Of a stretch of 40,060 nt of DNA, positions 6,720 through 30,458 are shown in pieces. The stretch covers positions 1 through 40,060 of the forward strand of contig NJBH01000034.1 of NCBI GenBank assembly GCA_005223125.1, in the 5' to 3' direction. A program made the position numbers and the translations under genes. The notes under the pieces were generated by a model. It ran no database searches. It worked only from the letters and a program-made list of their open reading frames with translations, and was not told the origin of the DNA. This DNA is from Promethearchaeota archaeon Loki_b32. GTDB lineage: Archaea; Asgardarchaeota; Lokiarchaeia; Sigyniarchaeales; SOKP01. Within the stretch, counting starts at the first letter, position 1, and each line of letters starts with the position of its first letter.

Positions 6720-6926
6720 ATGAACGATAAAAAAAATACAATAAAGATTTGGCTCATTTTTAGCGTGTTATTGATGATATTGCTTATTTTCTCTGTTTTT
6801 TTCTGGGATTTTTATTCTGGCACTGATACTCAAGGATTTGGAGTTTTGGAGCCTTATTATGACATGGGTATGTTCTACATTTACATGAAGAATGTACTCT
6901 TATTTTATTTCTTTTCATTTTTTTAA
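6720..6926 (+). CDS. Small single-pass membrane protein (hypothetical)
   Basis: 68 residues with a charged N-terminus (MNDKKNTIKIW) and one clear membrane segment (about 11-30). The rest is aromatic-rich and ends abruptly in FFSFF where the frame runs into the toxin gene on the other strand, overlapping its end by 12 bases. The abrupt end suggests a truncated gene or an ORF that is open only by chance. An AT-rich promoter region, shared with the AN1 gene, lies upstream. Confidence 0.35.
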   Translation: MNDKKNTIKIWLIFSVLLMILLIFSVFFWDFYSGTDTQGFGVLEPYYDMGMFYIYMKNVLLFYFFSFF

Positions 6927-7448
6927 TTCATTTGCCTTATCTAATAATGTTTTATATTGTGTTTTCTCCATCCACAAACCGATATCAATCATTTTATCAA
7001 GTAGTTCATTAAACTCCTGATAATCTTTTATAATTCCTTTTTCAAGAGCATCCAAAAGTACTTCAGAGCTCCATTTAGTCTTGATACCTTTTGATTCAGC
7101 AATGATTCTGGCTTTTTTATCATTTATAAGTAATAAATCTGCATTTAATTCTAAACTTAAAGCTATTGCATATGCTTCACCACGTCCCAATTCTTTGGTG
7201 AGATTTAAAGCAACTTCACGATATTCTTTTTTTTCAGGATCTTTAACAATCAGCCACCCCTCTTCTTTTGCTTTAATTTCATATTTAATGTCTGGAGGAA
7301 CCTTCCCATCTGGTTTAGATAGTGGATGGATCAACTCTTCCCAGACGGCATTAGGAACAAAAATCTTTAAATATAAATCTTTTAATAGAGTTAAATTCCC
7401 AATCTTAGCAAAAAATATAATAGGAGAAGTATCAGAAATGACTATCAT
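6915..7448 (-). CDS. DUF3368-type PIN-domain toxin
   Basis: 177 residues opening with MIVISDTSPIIFFAKIGNL, the hallmark of DUF3368 PIN-like proteins, with the first acidic residue at Asp6. The middle carries ELGRGEAYAIALSLEL, containing the conserved acidic/glycine block, followed by LLLINDKKARIIAESKGI, the third acidic site. These nuclease-like proteins are the toxin half of toxin-antitoxin pairs with UPF0175 proteins. The UPF0175 gene lies 11 bases upstream on the same strand, the standard order and spacing. The target is presumably RNA, as for PIN domains generally. The C-terminal extension after about residue 130 is helical. Confidence 0.88.
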   Translation of the reverse strand: MIVISDTSPIIFFAKIGNLTLLKDLYLKIFVPNAVWEELIHPLSKPDGKVPPDIKYEIKAKEEGWLIVKDPEKKEYREVALNLTKELGRGEAYAIALSLELNADLLLINDKKARIIAESKGIKTKWSSEVLLDALEKGIIKDYQEFNELLDKMIDIGLWMEKTQYKTLLDKANELKK

Positions 7449-20437: not shown

Positions 20438-20722
20438 TTACTTAAGGATAATTAGAATGAGGTTCTCTTCCAAAGCTATCATTGTCTCTCCTTTACTAGT
20501 CTCCAATCTTATGAAACTGAGCTCTCCTTCCTTCAACGCCTCAACTACCTGTTTCCCCTTCCCGATAAGTGAGGTAACATATGCAGCAATTGATTCACTG
20601 AGCTCAATTTCTAAATTAGAATCTATCGGCAAACCTGATGAATCACAGATGATCACACCACGAATTCCCTCACGTTCCTCGAATCTTCTTATGATATTTT
20701 TGACTTCCTGCCTATTAATCAT
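20438..20722 (-). CDS. Roadblock/LC7 domain protein
   Basis: 94 residues forming a single Roadblock/LC7 domain: the N-terminal helix, then GIRGVIICDSSGLPIDSNLE, the paired strands with GELSFIRLETSKGETMIAL and the final strand NLILIIL. Such domains act as dimeric platforms for small GTPases and motors in eukaryotes and for MglB-type GAPs in bacteria; Asgard archaea encode many. It is divergent from a second Roadblock gene at 20974, separated by 251 AT-rich bases. No GTPase is in the window, so the partner is unknown. ATG start. Confidence 0.85.
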   Translation of the reverse strand: MINRQEVKNIIRRFEEREGIRGVIICDSSGLPIDSNLEIELSESIAAYVTSLIGKGKQVVEALKEGELSFIRLETSKGETMIALEENLILIILK

Positions 20723-20973: not shown

Positions 20974-21327
20974 ATGGTTGATAAAAAAGTAATAGAACAA
21001 AAATTAGCGGAATTAATGGACATTGTTCCTGAAACAGAAGGCTTGATTGCCGCAGATGCGAATGGGAAAGTATTGGTGGGTCAAACAATTACAGATATGG
21101 ACCATGGAAAGATCGCTAAGGCATGTGCTGCAATAATAAAAGATTCCAATAATCTAGGAAAAGATATTGGCAAAGGTGGGTTGAGGACAACTACTATCGA
21201 ATTAGAAAGTGGATTTGCCGTTTTGGTAGGGTCTGAAAAAACGATTTTGATTGGTTTGGCAGGCTTAGATGGAAGGAGCTCTCTTGCTCTTTTAAAAAGA
21301 AATTTAATATCGATAAGTAACTTATAA
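20974..21327 (+). CDS. Roadblock/LC7 domain protein (second copy)
   Basis: 117 residues with the same fold layout as its divergent neighbour: GLIAADANGKVLVGQTI at the first strands, GGLRTTTIELESGFAVLV in the sheet, and TILIGLAGLDGRSSLALLKR near the C-terminus. The region DHGKIAKACAAIIKDSNNL is the second helix. It resembles MglB-like and other archaeal Roadblock proteins. The two copies are not near-identical, so they are probably old paralogues able to form a heterodimer. The following large surface-protein gene is convergent. Partner GTPase not visible. Confidence 0.85.
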   Translation: MVDKKVIEQKLAELMDIVPETEGLIAADANGKVLVGQTITDMDHGKIAKACAAIIKDSNNLGKDIGKGGLRTTTIELESGFAVLVGSEKTILIGLAGLDGRSSLALLKRNLISISNL

Positions 21328-21386: not shown

Positions 21387-24300
21387 TTACTTCTTAGGTT
21401 TTTTTTTTTTATCGCCAAGTCCTCGTTCTTCTAACAGGGAATCTAAATCCATGGTCTTTTTCTCCTTAACTTCTTTAGTTTCTTCCGATTTCTTAAGAGG
21501 TTTTTTAGTTGGAGTAGGTTTTTTCAATTCTGATACAGGAACATATTTTTCTCTTCTTGGTCTTCTTTTAGTAGGTTCTTCAATAGGAGTTGCAATTCGT
21601 TTTCTTATTTTCTGCATATAAATAATTACAACTATCCAGATTACAGCGAAAATAGCTCCAAATATAAACATAAAATATTCTATGAAGTAATCATAAATAG
21701 GAGGTTCATAAATCTTGAATGATGTTTCAGCAGTTGATCTTATACTCTCATTTGTTATTATATTTTGGGAGAATATTGAAATTGAGATGTTTAAATTATT
21801 AATCGCTCCTATATCTATTTCAATAATCAAATTTGTTTTTTCTCCAGGAGAAAACCAATCTAGCGATAAATAATCTATCTGTACAATAGAATAAGAGAAT
21901 TCATAGTTCAATTCAATAGAAAAATTATTAAAAACTCTCAAATTCGAATCTCCAATATTTACAAGAGTAATTGTGAATGTTGTTTCTCTGTTCTTGTAAA
22001 CAAGAACGTCATTTTTATTAATGGAAATTGAAATATTATTTGATTGATGAATTATATTAATTGAAATGTTTTTAGATACCTCATTTACAACGTCTCCGCT
22101 CCATATTAGTCGAACTAAGAGATCTCCTTCAAAATCAATTTTTTGAGTATTTATTAAAAAGGATGTCAAGCCATTTGAATCCGTGAGATCTGAACCTATT
22201 GTAACCCATAAATTAGTATCATAGTATTGGCAGGTAACGTTTTTATTAATTAATTCATCTTCAAATTCAGTGGCTAAAATAGAGGTAATATTAATAATTT
22301 GACCCTTGACAGGATTACTTGGATTAATCGAGATATTTGTGAATATACTATTTAAATTTAAGGAGAATTCATTACTAAATTGTCTGTAGCTACTTACATA
22401 GTTTTGATCGATTACATTAACTAGAAATGAGATGTTTTTAGGATAGTAAAGACATTCATCTCTTTGAAATTCATATAAAATGCCCGAAGTTGTAGCTTCT
22501 TCAGTTACTCTTAATCCAAGTATATTGCCTTCAAAATTATCTTTGGTTTCATTACTAAGTAATGAAATTTCAGGAAGTTCATACGTCCCAATATCAACAT
22601 CATCGATATATAGAGTAATAAGTGTTTTCGCACCACCAAGTCTGATTGGTGCGTTACTTCCAGCCCAAACTTTACTATTATTTTCTAAATAAGGTATATT
22701 TAGATTCAGACTGAATTCATTACTCTCATCTTCATGCCCTGAAAAATATAATAAAACCGGATCAGTAGTATTTTCTGCTATAATCCATTCTTCATTTGCA
22801 TATGAAACTAATTTCACATTAACTTTTACACTCACAGAAATAAAAGCATGTAGATTTTGGAGGGTCACGTTTATCTTAACACTTTCGCTAGGATTTATGA
22901 TATCTTCACTTTGTTTATATGAAGTTATCATAACCGGTAGTTGTTGACCTCCTACGCTATAAAGAAATTGTGAATTGACGTCAGTATTATTAATTGGATA
23001 AAAATTTGGCATAGATATACCTGTAGTTTCATTAACCGAAGCTATCAAGATTGTATAATTATCGAAAACTTGTTTATCTTTTTTGAAGTATCCACTAATG
23101 ACATTCGAATCCAACTCCGGATAATACTCACATTCATATAAATCTAAATCATATGCATCAATGTAAATGATAATTTCTTTGCAACCTATTGCAGATCCAT
23201 TGGACCAAAAGAAACCTAAATGATATTTACCAAAAACTGTAAGAGAATTTGTCAAATTTAAAATTGTGTGATTATCAAAATCATAAATTAGGGTGGAATC
23301 TTTAATAGTACCAGTTGAAGATATTCGTTCATAAGGAACATATTTACTACCATTTGGATAAAATAGAGTCACATTAGCGTCACCGCTATTAGGTGCTTTT
23401 AAATTATGGTCTTGAATTTCTAGACTAATAGAAATATTATCTCCATACATGAAACCATTAGTTTCCCATAATATTCCATTATAATTAATATAACTATGCA
23501 TATCATGAATAAAGTTATAACTTGTTAAATTAAGGGAGTAAATACCATCAATATTTGCAAAACTTTCAGGTACAATTACTTTATATTTACTTGAATCTCC
23601 CGTTAAATTTGATTCTCCACTTAATTGCCAAAATATTTCTTGATCAATTGGTTTTGTTAAATTTTGGGCATTAAAGAAATCTGGATATACATACCAAAAC
23701 TCGTAAAAATCCCAATAATTAAAGTTTGGATTGGTACTATTCATAGTATAATTAAAAATCCATTCAGGGTTACTATTATAATTTACACTATAAGTAGTTG
23801 AAGCACTTTCTATCCAGTATGCATTCACAGAATATGTAACATTGAATTGAAAACCTTTAATATTAGTATGATTCCATATAAGATCGATACGAAAATTGGG
23901 GTCATCCTCAATGGGTGTCGAAAAATTATGAATCCATTGGCCTAAACCCCATGTTAAATATGAACTTTCATTATAAGGGTAAGAGGTAATCTCATAATCT
24001 ATTATGGGCATATTTTGAATTGTTAAATTATAGTTTCCACTCATATTGAAATCTGATGGCATATATCCTCGAGTTACATTTAATATAAATAAGCTAGCGT
24101 CTAGCTGTCCTGAAGTGTATTGAGAGATGGAGTAATCAATCACTTCTTTAGCATTTGTCCAATTTTTTCCATCATCTAGAGTTGTTTTTAATTGATGTTC
24201 AGTTTCTAAATCATCTCCATAGTCAAAATTAGGGAGGGTTACAAGGCTATAGACTTCTTTGGAATTATTAGATTTAATAACAATAAAATAATTAGAAAGA

Positions 24301-25505
24301 TTTAGTTTATCAGTATTGCCTACATTAAATTTAAAATAGGAGTAATTGTCTCCAGTATAAGAGTCAACTGTTATAGAATCTTTCATATCATAATAATCTG
24401 GACTTAAATCAACATTAATTAAATGATAATCATCTCTTTCGACTGTAGAATTGGCTCTATAAAGTGTTATGTTTAATTGTGTTGAGGGGGCCTCCACAAG
24501 ATCAAGGGTTCTTATCCATCCATAAAATCCATGAACTGCTGATTCTTTTCCTTTTAAATCAAACTCTAATGCAACATAAGATTGATTTGTTATAGGAAGA
24601 TCAAAAGCATAAGTAGATTGTATATCATATTCATATATAAATGCTTCAAATGACTCCTGATCACTTTCGAAGATAAATTCTATTTCACAAACATTTGATA
24701 GATCAATAAAATTTAAATTTTCATTAATGAAATGCTCCCTTAATTCTTGACGACCCAAACTACTGTTAATAGGTAGTAGAGATATTACTTCTACCCAAGT
24801 AGATTGGGAAAAATCTTTTATTCTTACGGTCAAGTTAGCATCCTCAAAGAGATTGAAAACTAAAGATGAGATTAAAGCTAAAATTTTAGATCTATTAAAT
24901 TCTAGATTTCCCTTTAAAGCAATATTATGGATAGTATTGGTGAAATTAGCTATAATGGTAAAATTCAGCACCCCTTTTGTCGCATTCATATAAACATAAG
25001 AAGAATTAGTACCATCAATTAAATCATTGAAATCACCACTAATTATATCAGTATCTGGATCATCCCAGGTCCAATTTGATTTAGTAGTATTATAATCAAA
25101 AGAGATAAAATCATTTGCGTATAGAGCATCATCATCCTCTATAATATATTCTGTTGTAAAATTATTCTGAAATGTAAAATTAAAATCACCATAAGTGAGA
25201 ACCATATCTTCTGATGGAAGTGAAGGAATTTCAAAATATTCTAGGTTGTCATTTAAATTTTCAGATATATTGTTTACATAAATTCTTACGTCTTGATCCA
25301 CTCCACTGCCATTTATTTTTTCATCTAAATTAGTATTAGAACTTAAAAGTAAATTATCCAATTCTCCTTCATTAGTAGGATTATTAATTTTATCATCTTG
25401 ATATAAGTTAAAATTGCTAAAGATCAGCATATTAGACAAAATAATTGTAATGATGAAAATTGAAGTAAATAAAATTTGTTTTATCTCTTTTTTTCGACGA
25501 TTCAA
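21387..25505 (-). CDS. Large single-pass surface protein with charged cytoplasmic tail
   Basis: 1372 residues. The N-terminus (MNRRKKEIKQILFTSIFIIT) is a basic region plus hydrophobic signal segment. The long middle part is rich in N, S, T, aromatic residues and N-x-S/T sequons, with a beta-rich pattern like repeated immunoglobulin- or fibronectin-like domains (for example SINIIHQSNNISISINKN and STAETSFKIYEP). A membrane helix lies near residues 1272-1295, and the last 75 residues are K/E/P-rich, ending DLDSLLEERGLG then KKKKPKK. This is the layout of an archaeal S-layer or adhesion-type protein displayed outside with a cytoplasmic tail. The short amphipathic motif in the tail may bind an intracellular partner. 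No enzymatic motif seen. Confidence 0.85.
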   Translation of the reverse strand: MNRRKKEIKQILFTSIFIITIILSNMLIFSNFNLYQDDKINNPTNEGELDNLLLSSNTNLDEKINGSGVDQDVRIYVNNISENLNDNLEYFEIPSLPSEDMVLTYGDFNFTFQNNFTTEYIIEDDDALYANDFISFDYNTTKSNWTWDDPDTDIISGDFNDLIDGTNSSYVYMNATKGVLNFTIIANFTNTIHNIALKGNLEFNRSKILALISSLVFNLFEDANLTVRIKDFSQSTWVEVISLLPINSSLGRQELREHFINENLNFIDLSNVCEIEFIFESDQESFEAFIYEYDIQSTYAFDLPITNQSYVALEFDLKGKESAVHGFYGWIRTLDLVEAPSTQLNITLYRANSTVERDDYHLINVDLSPDYYDMKDSITVDSYTGDNYSYFKFNVGNTDKLNLSNYFIVIKSNNSKEVYSLVTLPNFDYGDDLETEHQLKTTLDDGKNWTNAKEVIDYSISQYTSGQLDASLFILNVTRGYMPSDFNMSGNYNLTIQNMPIIDYEITSYPYNESSYLTWGLGQWIHNFSTPIEDDPNFRIDLIWNHTNIKGFQFNVTYSVNAYWIESASTTYSVNYNSNPEWIFNYTMNSTNPNFNYWDFYEFWYVYPDFFNAQNLTKPIDQEIFWQLSGESNLTGDSSKYKVIVPESFANIDGIYSLNLTSYNFIHDMHSYINYNGILWETNGFMYGDNISISLEIQDHNLKAPNSGDANVTLFYPNGSKYVPYERISSTGTIKDSTLIYDFDNHTILNLTNSLTVFGKYHLGFFWSNGSAIGCKEIIIYIDAYDLDLYECEYYPELDSNVISGYFKKDKQVFDNYTILIASVNETTGISMPNFYPINNTDVNSQFLYSVGGQQLPVMITSYKQSEDIINPSESVKINVTLQNLHAFISVSVKVNVKLVSYANEEWIIAENTTDPVLLYFSGHEDESNEFSLNLNIPYLENNSKVWAGSNAPIRLGGAKTLITLYIDDVDIGTYELPEISLLSNETKDNFEGNILGLRVTEEATTSGILYEFQRDECLYYPKNISFLVNVIDQNYVSSYRQFSNEFSLNLNSIFTNISINPSNPVKGQIINITSILATEFEDELINKNVTCQYYDTNLWVTIGSDLTDSNGLTSFLINTQKIDFEGDLLVRLIWSGDVVNEVSKNISINIIHQSNNISISINKNDVLVYKNRETTFTITLVNIGDSNLRVFNNFSIELNYEFSYSIVQIDYLSLDWFSPGEKTNLIIEIDIGAINNLNISISIFSQNIITNESIRSTAETSFKIYEPPIYDYFIEYFMFIFGAIFAVIWIVVIIYMQKIRKRIATPIEEPTKRRPRREKYVPVSELKKPTPTKKPLKKSEETKEVKEKKTMDLDSLLEERGLGDKKKKPKK

Positions 25506-25671: not shown

Positions 25672-27021
25672 ATGAGTGACGAGCAAATCCTTAATGAAAT
25701 TGAAAGTAATAAAGAAGAATATATCGAATTTCTTAGAGAGTTAATTCAAACTGAATCATATAATCCTCCCGGAAATGAAAAAAATGTGGCTCAAAAAATT
25801 GAAAAATATTTAACTAATGCTGGGGTAAAGACTGAGATATTTCCTTTTGGGGAAAATCGAGCTAACCTAGTAACAACCTTAAATGATAATTTTGATGGAA
25901 AAAATTTATTATATAACGGACATCTTGATGTAGTTCCCCCTGGCTCTGAAGAAGAATGGAAATATCCTCCTCTTTCCGCTGCTTTTAAGAGAAAAAAAAT
26001 ATTTGGAAGAGGTGCTGCTGATATGAAAGGAGGATTAGCAGCTATGGTAATTGCTCTAAAAATTTTAAGGAAATTAAGCATTAAGACTTCTGGTAATTTA
26101 ATTGTAAATGCAGTTGCAGATGAAGAGCTTGGAGGGAAATTAGGTACTAAATGGTGTATTGATAATTTTCTAAAATCAAAAAAGTGTGATTTTGTTGTAG
26201 TAGGTGAACCTACAGGATTTGATCCTTTATCAAAAGCAATAATTATTGGTGAAAAAGGGCGTGTTGCTATAAAAATAATAACAAATGGAATTTCTTGCCA
26301 TGCTGCTGTACCCTTCTTAGGAAAAAATGCTATTTATATGATGAGTGAAATTATTCAAAATTTGGATAAAATAGATGAATTTATCCCAAGAATTGAATCA
26401 CCTTTAACAGAAGACGAATTAAAAGAGTTAATTACTGTAGTTTTTTCCAACAAAGAAATTTTTGAGAAAATATTTAAGGAACAACCTCTACTCCAAAATG
26501 TTATTAAAGCTAATACTCAATTTACAAAAAATTTGACTATGATCAATGGAGGTATTAAATCCAATGTTGTTCCCGATCAATGTGAATCTGTAATTGATTT
26601 TAGATTACTACCAGGCCAAACAACCGAAATGATATTAGATGGTTTGAAGAAATTAATTAATAAACTTGGATATCAAATAAAAGATGAACCAACGGGACTT
26701 CCTAAAGAAGTATTTGTATATTTAGAAATAGAACAATCAGGTGAAGCATCATACTGGAGTGATTGGAAAAATTCCCAAGTTTTGAAAGATTTTTATACGA
26801 TTGTAGAGCAAACTTATAAAAGAACACCTTTTTATTTCATATTGCCTGGAAGTGCAGATGCAAAATTCTATAGAAATACAAACTTCTGTCAACCTACAAT
26901 TTTATTTGGTCCTGGAAATGGGCAAATTGCTCATACGACTAATGAATATATTGAAGCACAAGATTATATTAATGCTATTAAGGTGTATACATTATTTGCT
27001 TATAACTATCTAAAAAATTAA
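25672..27021 (+). CDS. M20-family deacylase/peptidase (ArgE/DapE-like)
   Basis: 449 residues. Zinc ligands and catalytic residues appear in order: His84 and catalytic Asp86 in YNGHLDVVPPG, bridging Asp118 in GRGAADMKGG, Glu151 (base) and Glu152 (ligand) in ADEELGG, the acidic ligand in VVGEPTG, and the last His in GQIAHTTNEYIE. The dimerisation (lid) domain occupies about 195-330. Family members remove acyl groups from amino acids (acetylornithine, succinyl-diaminopimelate) or cleave dipeptides. The lid insertion is longer than in typical ArgE proteins, so the substrate is uncertain. ATG start; no operon partner is obvious. Confidence 0.9.
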   Translation: MSDEQILNEIESNKEEYIEFLRELIQTESYNPPGNEKNVAQKIEKYLTNAGVKTEIFPFGENRANLVTTLNDNFDGKNLLYNGHLDVVPPGSEEEWKYPPLSAAFKRKKIFGRGAADMKGGLAAMVIALKILRKLSIKTSGNLIVNAVADEELGGKLGTKWCIDNFLKSKKCDFVVVGEPTGFDPLSKAIIIGEKGRVAIKIITNGISCHAAVPFLGKNAIYMMSEIIQNLDKIDEFIPRIESPLTEDELKELITVVFSNKEIFEKIFKEQPLLQNVIKANTQFTKNLTMINGGIKSNVVPDQCESVIDFRLLPGQTTEMILDGLKKLINKLGYQIKDEPTGLPKEVFVYLEIEQSGEASYWSDWKNSQVLKDFYTIVEQTYKRTPFYFILPGSADAKFYRNTNFCQPTILFGPGNGQIAHTTNEYIEAQDYINAIKVYTLFAYNYLKN

Positions 27022-27107: not shown

Positions 27108-28286
27108 TTGCCTGACATAAAAATAGAAGATACTGTAATTCTCTTAGACACTTCTAGGTCTATGTTGAGAAAAGACTTCAAACCAAGTAGATTAGTGGTT
27201 GAATTACAAACAGCTAAGAATTTTATTGAATCAAAATTATCAATTGATATGAAAGATCGAATTTCAGTTATAACTTTCGGAGGAGTAACGAAAAAATTAA
27301 TTAATTTTGCCTTTGAAGAAATTAAACTGATTCAATCACTAAAAAAAGTTCAAATCTCAGGTCAAGGATTCTTACATGAAGGAATTGCTTTTGCATTACA
27401 AATCCTTGTTGAAGAGTTGCGAAAAATCGGAGGTAAAACACCTCGTATTTTTATTATTACCGATAATAAATTGAAGGTTGACGCGAGCAAATTGGAAAAA
27501 ATGGTTAAAATAGCAAAGGGTTTAGGTGTGTTTATTGATGCTTGTCAATTGGGAGGAACCCAAGATTATGGTGAAAATTCTTTAAAAAGAATAACTCAAC
27601 TAACTGGAGGAGAATATGGGTATTTTAATAATTCAAAAGCATTAATAAATGCTGGTAATGCTTTTGCTTCGAAAAAAGATACCAATAAAACAAGTGATTA
27701 TTTCTCTCCAGAGAAAAAAGATAAAATTGCACCACTAGTTAGTGAAATAGCTCTACCATTACGAAGACCATCAATGTTAGATATTCGAATAATGATGAAA
27801 GGAACAAATAAAGGACAAGAAAAATGTCAAATTTGTCATTCTGTCAAAGCAGTAATTACTGGGGCTGATTTTTTTAGTGAGGGGCGCTATTGTCCAAGTT
27901 GCGATCGAGCAATGCATCTCTCTTGCGCTGCAATGTGGGCAAAAAAAACAGAATATAAAGATTATGTATTTAGATGCCCTTTCTGTTTTTTCTTGTTAGA
28001 ATTACCCAAAGCAGCACTAAAATTAGTAAAAGAAAAAACAGAAGAATTTCAAGAAATAAAAATTATTGATGATGATGAAGCGCTTGATACAAAAATGATT
28101 TTAATCCCCGAGGAAAAAATAGACCAAATAGATGCATCTTGTTCTTATTGTCATAGTATATTTTTAGGTGATTTTAAAGTATTACAGTGTGAAAATTGTA
28201 ATGCGTATTACCATGAACCTTGTCTCCATAAAATGAATAAAGAAATCAAAGCTTGTAGATATTGTGGAGCTAAAATAACCTTTTAA
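27108..28286 (+). CDS. VWA-domain protein with two C4HC3 zinc fingers
   Basis: 392 residues, start TTG with ggaag upstream. A von Willebrand A domain fills about 5-195, with the MIDAS motif Asp14-x-Ser16-x-Ser18 in LLDTSRSM and a later FIITDNK strand. Two zinc modules follow. The first has Cys240, Cys243, Cys262, Cys265, His270, Cys273, Cys290, Cys293; the second has Cys345, Cys348, Cys361, Cys364, His369, Cys372, Cys383, Cys386. Both are C4HC3 fingers of the RING/PHD class, joined by an acidic linker. VWA plus C-terminal zinc fingers is the layout of the TFIIH subunit Ssl1/p44 and of plant RGLG-type ubiquitin ligases. I infer a role in a protein complex or ubiquitin-like pathway. The neighbours do not settle it. 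Confidence 0.82.
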   Translation: MPDIKIEDTVILLDTSRSMLRKDFKPSRLVVELQTAKNFIESKLSIDMKDRISVITFGGVTKKLINFAFEEIKLIQSLKKVQISGQGFLHEGIAFALQILVEELRKIGGKTPRIFIITDNKLKVDASKLEKMVKIAKGLGVFIDACQLGGTQDYGENSLKRITQLTGGEYGYFNNSKALINAGNAFASKKDTNKTSDYFSPEKKDKIAPLVSEIALPLRRPSMLDIRIMMKGTNKGQEKCQICHSVKAVITGADFFSEGRYCPSCDRAMHLSCAAMWAKKTEYKDYVFRCPFCFFLLELPKAALKLVKEKTEEFQEIKIIDDDEALDTKMILIPEEKIDQIDASCSYCHSIFLGDFKVLQCENCNAYYHEPCLHKMNKEIKACRYCGAKITF

Positions 28287-28364: not shown

Positions 28365-30458
28365 TTGATTAAATTAGGAAATAAAAAGCGATCTAAATGG
28401 GTTATTACATCTGCATGGCCTTATGTAAACGCTACACCCCATTTAGGGAATTTAATCGGAAGTACTCTGTCAGCAGATGTATTTGCTAGGTTTTTGAGAA
28501 TGAACGGAGAAGAAGTAGTATTTGTTTCTGGATCTGATTCTCACGGAACGCCAGTCTTGGTTGAAGCAAAAAAATTAAAGGTACCAGCCGAAGAACTAGC
28601 GTTCAAATATCATAATATCATTAAAGAATTACATGAAAAATGGCAAATATCTTTTGATAATTATACGATAACTCACAATCCAACTCATATTGAATTTGTC
28701 CAGAAAATGTATTTAGAGATACAAAAAAATGGGTATATTATTGAAAAAGAGATTGAATCGTTATATTGTGAAAATGATGACCTTTTTTTACCTGATAGAT
28801 TTGTAGAAGGGATATGTCCTCATTGTAATTTTGAAGATGCTCGAGGAGATCAATGTGATAATTGCCAAAAGCTATTAACTCCAATAGAACTTATTAAATC
28901 CAGATGTGCAGTTTGTGGAAATGCTCCTGTAATTAAAAAAACAAAGCATTGGTATTTAGATCTGCCTAAATTACAAGATCGATTGAAGAAATTAATTGAA
29001 CAAAATGAGATTATTCCCGCGAATGCTCGACAAATGTGCTTAAACAGTATAGCAGAAGGTTTACCCGAACGATCAATTACCCGAGATTTAGAATGGGGGA
29101 TTCCAGCACCTTTTGAGGGTGCTAATGATAAAACCATATACGTGTGGTTTGAGGCTGTCCTGGGATATGTGACAGCTGTTAAAGAATGGGCAGAAAAAAT
29201 TATTAATGAACCGGATAAATTCAATTACTTTTGGAAAGATCCTTCTACTAGAACAGTATACTTTATCGGAAAGGATAATATTATTTTTCATTTAATCGTG
29301 TTTCCTGCTCTATTAATGGCCTATAATGATAACAAAGAAGAAGGCGAAAAACTTGTATTACCTTATAATGTTTCTTCAACTGAATGGTTAATGTATGAAA
29401 ATGTTAAATTTTCAAAATCAAGAGGGATTGGTATTTGGATTGATGATGCATTACAACTTGCTCCTCTTGATTATTGGCGTTTTAGTTTACTATATAATAG
29501 ACCTGAAACAAGTGATACATCTTTTTTGTGGTCTGAATTTGAAAATAATATAAAAACCCTCAATGATAATATTGGAAATTTTATACATAGAACCCTAACA
29601 TTTATAAATAGACAATTCAAAGGTAATGTGCCTAAAAAAATTGCCTATGTTCCAAAAGCAAATGTTGAACTTGAAAAACCTCTTGCAAGTAGAATTGATT
29701 TTGAATTTCAAGAAAAAATAAGATTGATTACATTAAAAATTAGTAGTTTATTAGAGCGATTTGAAATACGCAGGGCAATTAGAGAAATTGTTAATTTCGG
29801 TAAGAAATGCAACGTTTACTTGAATGAAAGAGCACCTTGGCATTTAATAAAAGATGGAGAGAAAGACTTAGCTGGGCATGTATTTAATCTTTGTACTCAA
29901 GCTGTTTATGCTTTAGCTATAATGTTAGGATCTTTTATTCCGGATACTTCAGAAAAAATCTTAATATATTTAAATCAACCAAAATTAAATGAGATAAATT
30001 GGAACAGTGTAAATGAGAATTCAATTAAAGATGGAACTAAAATAAGAAAACCTGATCCACTTTTTCAGAAACTAGATATAGAAGAAGTAAAGGAAAAATT
30101 AAAAAATTTAAAAGAAAATAAGAAAGGTGAAAAGAATTTGGTATCATATGATGAGTTTAAAAAATTAGATATTCGAGTTGCTTTAATCGAAGATGTTGAA
30201 AAAGTTCCTAAGGCAGATAAACTCTATAAATTATCTATTGATTTGGGAACTGAAAAAAGAACTTTAGTAGCGGGTTTGGCAGAATATTATAACGTAGATG
30301 ATTTAAAAGGAAAGAAGATTGTAGTGTTAACAAATTTGGAACCAAGAAAATTAAAAGGAATCTTAAGTAAGGGAATGCTGCTTGCAGCTGTTGAAGGTGA
30401 TAATGTCTCAATACTAATCCCTGATAAAGATCTTCCTCCCGGAGCAAGAATAGAATAA
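28365..30458 (+). CDS. metG: Methionyl-tRNA synthetase with C-terminal tRNA-binding domain
   Basis: 697 residues. The class I synthetase signatures are PYVNATPHLGNL (HIGH-type, His26-Gly28) and KFSKSRG (KMSKS-type, 348-352). The zinc knuckles CPHC..CDNC and CAVCGNAPV sit in the connective-peptide insertion. The anticodon-binding helices follow, and a Trbp111/EMAP-like tRNA-binding domain takes the last 120 residues (KLDIRVALIEDVEKVPKADK through LVAGLAEYY). It charges tRNA-Met in the cytoplasm. The arrangement is the archaeal/eukaryotic form. The start TTG directly follows agaggt; no better start gives the conserved N-terminus. Confidence 0.95.
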   Translation: MIKLGNKKRSKWVITSAWPYVNATPHLGNLIGSTLSADVFARFLRMNGEEVVFVSGSDSHGTPVLVEAKKLKVPAEELAFKYHNIIKELHEKWQISFDNYTITHNPTHIEFVQKMYLEIQKNGYIIEKEIESLYCENDDLFLPDRFVEGICPHCNFEDARGDQCDNCQKLLTPIELIKSRCAVCGNAPVIKKTKHWYLDLPKLQDRLKKLIEQNEIIPANARQMCLNSIAEGLPERSITRDLEWGIPAPFEGANDKTIYVWFEAVLGYVTAVKEWAEKIINEPDKFNYFWKDPSTRTVYFIGKDNIIFHLIVFPALLMAYNDNKEEGEKLVLPYNVSSTEWLMYENVKFSKSRGIGIWIDDALQLAPLDYWRFSLLYNRPETSDTSFLWSEFENNIKTLNDNIGNFIHRTLTFINRQFKGNVPKKIAYVPKANVELEKPLASRIDFEFQEKIRLITLKISSLLERFEIRRAIREIVNFGKKCNVYLNERAPWHLIKDGEKDLAGHVFNLCTQAVYALAIMLGSFIPDTSEKILIYLNQPKLNEINWNSVNENSIKDGTKIRKPDPLFQKLDIEEVKEKLKNLKENKKGEKNLVSYDEFKKLDIRVALIEDVEKVPKADKLYKLSIDLGTEKRTLVAGLAEYYNVDDLKGKKIVVLTNLEPRKLKGILSKGMLLAAVEGDNVSILIPDKDLPPGARIE

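Follow-up and report, generated by a model that had tools for sequence, protein, structure and literature searches.

The window (the whole 40,060-nucleotide stretch of Loki_b32 DNA analyzed here) carries a gene for a real, conserved and unusual protein, in which a VWA domain of the p44/Rpn10 type is joined to two RING-like zinc fingers, in a single archaeal class. The p44 and p34 proteins are core subunits of TFIIH, and no archaeal counterpart of either was found described in the literature that we searched. Nor did we find a description of the present VWA-RING family in that literature, which was short of most subscription papers and all of bioRxiv.

Gene and Domain Organization

The VWA-RING reading frame (Table 1) begins with a TTG codon, where a homologous L, V or M start is present in relatives, and there is no long competing frame on the opposite strand. 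A sequence-only reading of the window had described a MIDAS (Asp14-x-Ser16-x-Ser18) and two C4HC3 fingers with the same ligand order. Both are present in the translated ORF: the DxSxS motif falls at D14-x-S16-x-S18, and the ligands of the two fingers, whose retention among relatives marks them as more than a chance pattern, follow in the same order. The AlphaFold model of the full protein had a mean pLDDT of 79 and a pTM of 0.69; in the modeled VWA domain (AF2), helices and strands alternate.

Table 1. Positions in the window of the VWA-RING gene, its parts and its conserved neighbors.
Feature	Position	Strand	Remarks
Whole gene: VWA and two RING-like fingers	27108..28286	+	392 aa, TTG start
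VWA domain, residues 6-187, p44/Rpn10 type	27123..27668	+	Pfam, AF2, Foldseek
DxSRxMxxxDxxPxR motif, residues 14-28: first MIDAS loop and p44/Rpn10-type extension	27147..27191	+	Motif in p44, Ssl1, Rpn10; conservation
D119, acidic MIDAS residue	27462..27464	+	Kept in 61/62 members
Linker, residues 188-238	27669..27821	+	Low-confidence segments: pLDDT <50 at 190-206 and 233-236
Finger 1, residues 240-293, C4HC3, RING-like; candidate E2-binding module (I242, W277, P291)	27825..27986	+	
Finger 2, residues 345-386, C4HC3, without E2-contact triad	28140..28265	+	
M20 peptidase, conserved upstream neighbor	25672..27021	+	Pfam, synteny
Methionyl-tRNA synthetase, conserved downstream neighbor	28365..30458	+	Pfam, synteny

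The VWA Domain and Its Likeness to p44 and Rpn10

A Pfam scan matched the protein to VWA_2 (1.2e-13) and to Ssl1 (PF04056; 2.8e-7, with 31 bits against a cut-off of 27). The DxSRxMxxxDxxPxR motif is common to the VWA-RING protein, p44 (VDGSRTMEDQDLKPNR), Ssl1 and Rpn10. Among 62 distinct family members, D14 and S16 were each kept in 58, S18 in 57 and D119 in 61. The MIDAS Thr position is not conserved (the corresponding stretch in the protein is SGQGFLHEG), which leaves a metal site that looks incomplete; those of p44 and Rpn10 look so as well.

In PDB profile searches, p44 (1.3e-12) and Rpn10 (2.2e-12) led when a 17-member alignment was used; with 30 members the values were 1.1e-17 for Rpn10 and 2.1e-17 for p44, both ranking ahead of bacterial BatB, and full-length fungal Ssl1 (8rev_D) was aligned over positions 5–389 (4e-11). 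With hhalign, the full protein reached 98.9% against p44 over 313 columns running through the zinc region, 98.1% against Rpn10 and 92% against p34, the E-values being those of single comparisons with profiles of two or three sequences (two for p44). (The human and yeast p44, p34 and Rpn10 yardsticks were identical to the PDB chains over the stretch used; Ssl1 was corrected at one residue.) Five further VWA proteins that the window genome encodes remained below 2% against p44 and p34, which rules out a generic VWA similarity; one of them reached 66% against Rpn10. These profile searches and same-genome controls place the VWA in the p44/Rpn10 kind, and the whole architecture favors p44. The VWA by itself does not separate p44 from Rpn10, and in a tree of the VWA domains of p44, p34, Rpn10 and the VWA-RING family, support at the relevant nodes was low and the branching order was not separated. 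As to a grouping with bacterial YegL-type proteins, which the sequence-only reading had named as a refuting outcome, the domain sides with the profiles of p44 and Rpn10, in contrast to the genome's other VWA proteins, the bacterial comparator here being BatB rather than YegL.

When the AF2 model was compared with the PDB using Foldseek, p44/Ssl1 chains took the first 16 places, the top one with an E of 6.7e-17 over 379 columns, and Rpn10 followed from 1e-11. The VWA on its own superposed with Ssl1 (4wfq) with a target TM of 0.83. The global TM against p44/Ssl1 was low (0.42–0.53), and the interdomain arrangement is therefore not matched. The Ssl1/p44-like layout proposed from the sequence thus stands as far as the Pfam Ssl1 model, the PDB profiles, the AlphaFold/Foldseek comparison and hhalign with its controls are concerned, but does not extend to the finger chemistry, which differs.

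Of 228 Asgard genomes, 79 had an Ssl1-model match over the cut-off, and every one of the 79 belongs to Lokiarchaeia; one sub-threshold match lay outside the class, and none of 14 control genomes passed the cut-off. Wherever a place was listed by both searches, the Ssl1-model match coincided with a VWA-RING family member; in the window genome, two of the seven VWA_2 loci match Ssl1. The model for p34/Tfb4 (PF03850) gave 11.5 bits in the VWA-RING protein, against a cut-off of 27, and had no match in the window genome. It reached the cut-off in nine other Asgard genomes, each of them a member of the window's order. Among Asgard genomes, Lokiarchaeia are thus the only class with matches over the cut-off for either profile. 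The Tfb4 matches lie mostly in B-type paralogues (see below) and fall in the C-terminal half of the VWA, the Ssl1 matches chiefly in its N-terminal half. The combined half-domain matches would fit a relative of both p44 and p34, a weak hint and no proof.

The Zinc Fingers

The ligands of finger 1 are C240-x2-C243-x18-C262-x2-C265-x4-H270-x2-C273-x16-C290-x2-C293, and those of finger 2 are C345-x2-C348-x12-C361-x2-C364-x4-H369-x2-C372-x10-C383-x2-C386. All eight ligands of finger 1 were kept in 62/62 distinct members and those of finger 2 in 58–62, His 369 being found in 58. The C-x2-C-x4-H-x2-C spacing is atypical for a RING and is like that in PHD fingers and in the C4HC3 RING of Nse1, whereas the overall spacing of finger 2 resembles the C-terminal C4C4 RING of p44. 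Several members (L065, L068, L070 and L077) carry two further motifs in finger 1, C-P-x-C and C-G-R-[FY], inserted between its first and second ligand pairs; because of these extra Cys motifs, the finger may bind additional zinc.

The sequence-only reading had suggested that predicted structures of the fingers be compared with RING folds. In a model of the two fingers (mean pLDDT 82.6), they are predicted to be RING-like, with a RING-like cross-brace fold for finger 1. RING domains ranked first in Foldseek, namely RNF165/ARK2C (prob 1.00), TRIM2, RNF38, RNF12 and Nse1 (prob 1.00, rmsd 2.5), and p44 was lower in the ranking (prob 0.77); the best E of any match was 8.5e-3, and none was below 0.001. 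The Pfam zf-RING_2 model (E ≤ 1) matched 29/29 members, at best with 1.4e-8, FANCL_C gave weak matches in 21/29, and Pfam PHD and C1 matches were common. With hhalign, the fingers alone gave 66% against p44, 5% against p34 and 0.1% against Rpn10, which is suggestive only of homology with the p44 fingers.

Finger 1 keeps the triad of E2-contact residues: the Ile within the first ligand pair (I242, 61/62), the Trp four residues past the sixth ligand (W277, 62/62) and the Pro in the last C-P-x-C (P291, 54/62). The residue after C293, at the linchpin position, is F in 39, Y in 21 and L in two of the 62 members, and the basic linchpin is absent. The triad is absent from finger 2. In the reconstituted archaeal ubiquitin cascade, the Caldiarchaeum RING E3 needed I30 and W58, which correspond to the Ile and Trp of finger 1, and the basic linchpin R69 (PMC5654768). 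In the simplest reading, finger 1 would be able to bind an E2 and finger 2 would be a docking module.

Distribution and Paralogues

A scan of public prokaryote genomes, with patterns that reach close relatives only, returned 26 relatives at 58–87% identity, one of them truncated by a contig end; all 26 are in Lokiarchaeota/Lokiarchaeia MAG records. In a profile search of 228 Asgard genomes, almost every member of the class Lokiarchaeia had a strong match, and matches outside the class were weak (E no better than about 6e-9). A broader profile was run on 16 genomes in which earlier matches had been weak or absent; VWA and finger matches were separate there, and reading the frames at four loci (L115, L118, L131–L133) showed no VWA joined to a finger. 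The family is near-universal in, and specific to, Lokiarchaeia among the Asgard genomes searched.

Contigs C18 and C52 of the window genome hold its two paralogues. B-type paralogues (L031:6300-7502(-); L067, L069 and L079) have a TPR protein and an Arf/Rag-like GTPase as neighbors. A third paralogue (L032:5928-7067(+)) has lost the MIDAS, and of its finger 2 only ribbon-like C-x2-C pairs remain; G118 has copies of this type in tandem (L082:4767-7204). A 686-aa member in G081 (L109:4136-6193(-)) consists of the VWA and finger 1, followed by a long extension and C-terminal ribbon-like C-x2-C repeats.

Gene Neighborhood and Ubiquitin System

Within the window's clade, the neighbors of the VWA-RING gene are conserved, with the M20 peptidase upstream and methionyl-tRNA synthetase (MetRS) downstream. 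MetRS is directly downstream in 25/26 of the relatives' loci; the adjacency is kept in family f1, and a single gene lies between in f4 and in one f3 genome. These conserved neighbors suggest neither a ubiquitin nor a TFIIH role. Upstream of the peptidase, VWA-RING and MetRS genes, in conserved synteny, is a gene for a 1372-aa likely surface protein (21387-25505(-)), which by eye has a signal-like start and a C-terminal membrane segment. Two small proteins, roadblock/LC7-like by eye (20974-21327(+) and 20438-20722(-)), are kept in the same neighborhood.

The window genome has a cluster (L104) that comprises a ubiquitin-family gene, an E1-like ThiF protein, an E2 (6790-7314) and a JAB protease, a second E1/E2-like cluster (L105) with a neighbor that is JAB-like by eye, and a third E1/E2 pair (L106). 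The E2 gene of the latter (L106:5901-6447(+)) is split over two overlapping frames, possibly by an assembly frameshift. E2 genes are widespread across the Asgard phylum. All E2 loci of the window genome are on contigs other than that of the VWA-RING gene, and no ubiquitin gene was adjacent to the latter on the contigs compared across Asgard genomes. Other zf-RING_2 matches exist in the window genome, which rules out the VWA-RING protein as its only E3 candidate.

One Lokiarchaeial genome (G082), where we found no VWA-finger protein, encodes a 429-aa protein (L133:1971-3257(-)) with a finger-1-type domain near its C-terminus. This protein has weak RWD and UQ_con matches, looks repeated, and is reminiscent of FANCL, which combines an E2-like/RWD part with a C4HC3 RING. 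The best PDB match of its finger was the C-terminal domain of p44, at a weak 0.0079. The gene adjoins, in the same orientation, a gene that is E1-like by eye, with a ThiF-type start. This case ties the finger type, not the VWA-RING gene itself, to the ubiquitin system.

Discussion

Our preferred reading, which we hold tentatively and at not far below an even chance, is that the VWA-RING protein is a Lokiarchaeia-specific scaffold, an E3-like adaptor made of a p44/Rpn10-type VWA and an E2-binding RING, with ancestry probably shared with p44. In the mechanism that we infer, the VWA would dock on a protein partner, finger 1, as a RING-like cross-brace, would bind an E2 of the archaeal ubiquitin system, and finger 2 would serve as a docking or structural module. 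Through finger 1, E2~ubiquitin would be brought to the VWA partner or to that partner's client. An E3-like protein was already among the suggestions of the sequence-only reading. The predicted RING-like fold and the E2-contact residues uphold that suggestion, while it is weakened by the missing basic linchpin and by the absence of ubiquitin genes next to the VWA-RING gene; an E3-like role is plausible, if somewhat less probable than not. The VWA probably shares its ancestry with that of p44/Ssl1; the same may be said, more tentatively, of the whole layout, and the zinc modules may likewise be of common descent with those of p44.

That reading has to be weighed against a role closer to p44 itself, in which the VWA would be the binding partner and stimulator of an XPD-type helicase and the fingers would bind other proteins without any ubiquitin activity. 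The best full-length structural match is indeed p44/Ssl1, the p44 VWA stimulates XPD while the p44 RING binds p34 (PMC4094531), and the genome has two XPD-type DEAD_2 helicases (L107:6045-7817 and L108:4496-6577), one with a strong HBB domain. However, the helicase genes are on contigs other than that of the VWA-RING gene, such helicases are also present in archaea (control genomes) without a match to the Ssl1 model, and no further TFIIH-specific subunit was shown, a search for p52/Tfb2 having found no match there or in the control genomes, which makes it uninformative. Such a scaffold would also leave the conserved E2-contact residues unexplained, and we consider it unlikely. As for the earlier suggestion of an ancestral-type TFIIH subunit, the VWA is equally near Rpn10, the VWA tree has low support at the relevant nodes and the finger chemistry is unlike that of p44. 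Work of the protein in a TFIIH-like complex is so far unsupported. The level scores of Rpn10 and p44 in the profile searches might instead point to a proteasome-side adaptor, with the VWA docked on a proteasome-associated complex and the fingers binding ubiquitin-system proteins, and a 20S proteasome alpha subunit gene does lie near the B-type paralogues in three related genomes (L067, L069 and L079). This linkage is one of the paralogue only, since neither the VWA-RING gene nor the B-type locus of the window genome was seen to have a proteasome gene nearby. Rpn10, moreover, has UIMs and no RING, and the UIM that had been suggested as something to look for was matched by no UIM model in the VWA-RING protein (Pfam scan to E 1), so that we regard an adaptor of this kind as improbable.

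The conserved MetRS neighbor raises the question of whether this is simply a Lokiarchaeial VWA protein with generic RING/PHD-like fingers, acting outside the ubiquitin system, TFIIH and the proteasome, for example in translation. Its likeness to p44 would then reflect the VWA type and an independent addition of fingers, in keeping with the weak similarity of the fingers alone to p44, the poorly supported VWA tree and the common PHD and C1 matches. We find this quite unlikely, as finger 1 strictly keeps the E2-contact triad and the same-genome controls show the VWA match to be specific. In a wider evolutionary proposal, the family would come from an archaeal VWA-RING stock that gave rise to both p44 and p34 of TFIIH by duplication, and RINGs in reduced form would be what the zinc modules of these two subunits represent. 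According to PMC4094531, which cites Takagi 2005, an E3 activity has been proposed for yeast Ssl1; on this proposal it would be a relic of an archaeal ubiquitin ligase. A common p44/p34 stock is supported by the matches of family members to Ssl1 and of B-type paralogues to Tfb4, both confined to Lokiarchaeia among Asgard genomes; we nevertheless rate the proposal as rather unlikely.

The VWA-RING family may show the form of a p44-type subunit before it joined TFIIH. A conserved archaeal VWA-RING protein offers an expressible stand-in with which the origin of the non-helicase core of TFIIH can be tested, including whether the union of a VWA scaffold with a RING, as in TFIIH, began within an archaeal ubiquitin pathway.

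Comparison with Known Systems

The small RING E3 of Caldiarchaeum (srfp) shares with finger 1 the Ile and Trp of the E2-contact surface, but is a stand-alone protein encoded in a ubiquitin operon, with a basic linchpin and without a VWA. Nse1 and FANCL, both C4HC3 RING-like E3s, have the same ligand order, and Nse1 also a predicted fold match; they too are without a VWA and belong to other partner complexes. Rpn10/S5a has the same type of VWA, with a profile score equal to that of p44, followed by a UIM C-terminus where the Lokiarchaeial protein has RING-like fingers. In p34/Tfb4, a VWA is likewise combined with a C-terminal zinc module, and an IDAC.L...TGG.Y stretch is held in common, but p34 has a single C4 module and no DxSxS motif. 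In p44/Ssl1 (GTF2H2), the first module is C4 and the last C4C4, whereas both are C4HC3 in the Lokiarchaeial protein, whose first finger is predicted to be a complete RING-like domain and carries E2-contact residues, and whose conserved gene neighbors point to no TFIIH context. The order of parts is nevertheless the same in the two proteins: both have an N-terminal VWA that contains a DxSRxMxxxDxxPxR-type motif and, after it, a pair of zinc modules towards the C-terminus.
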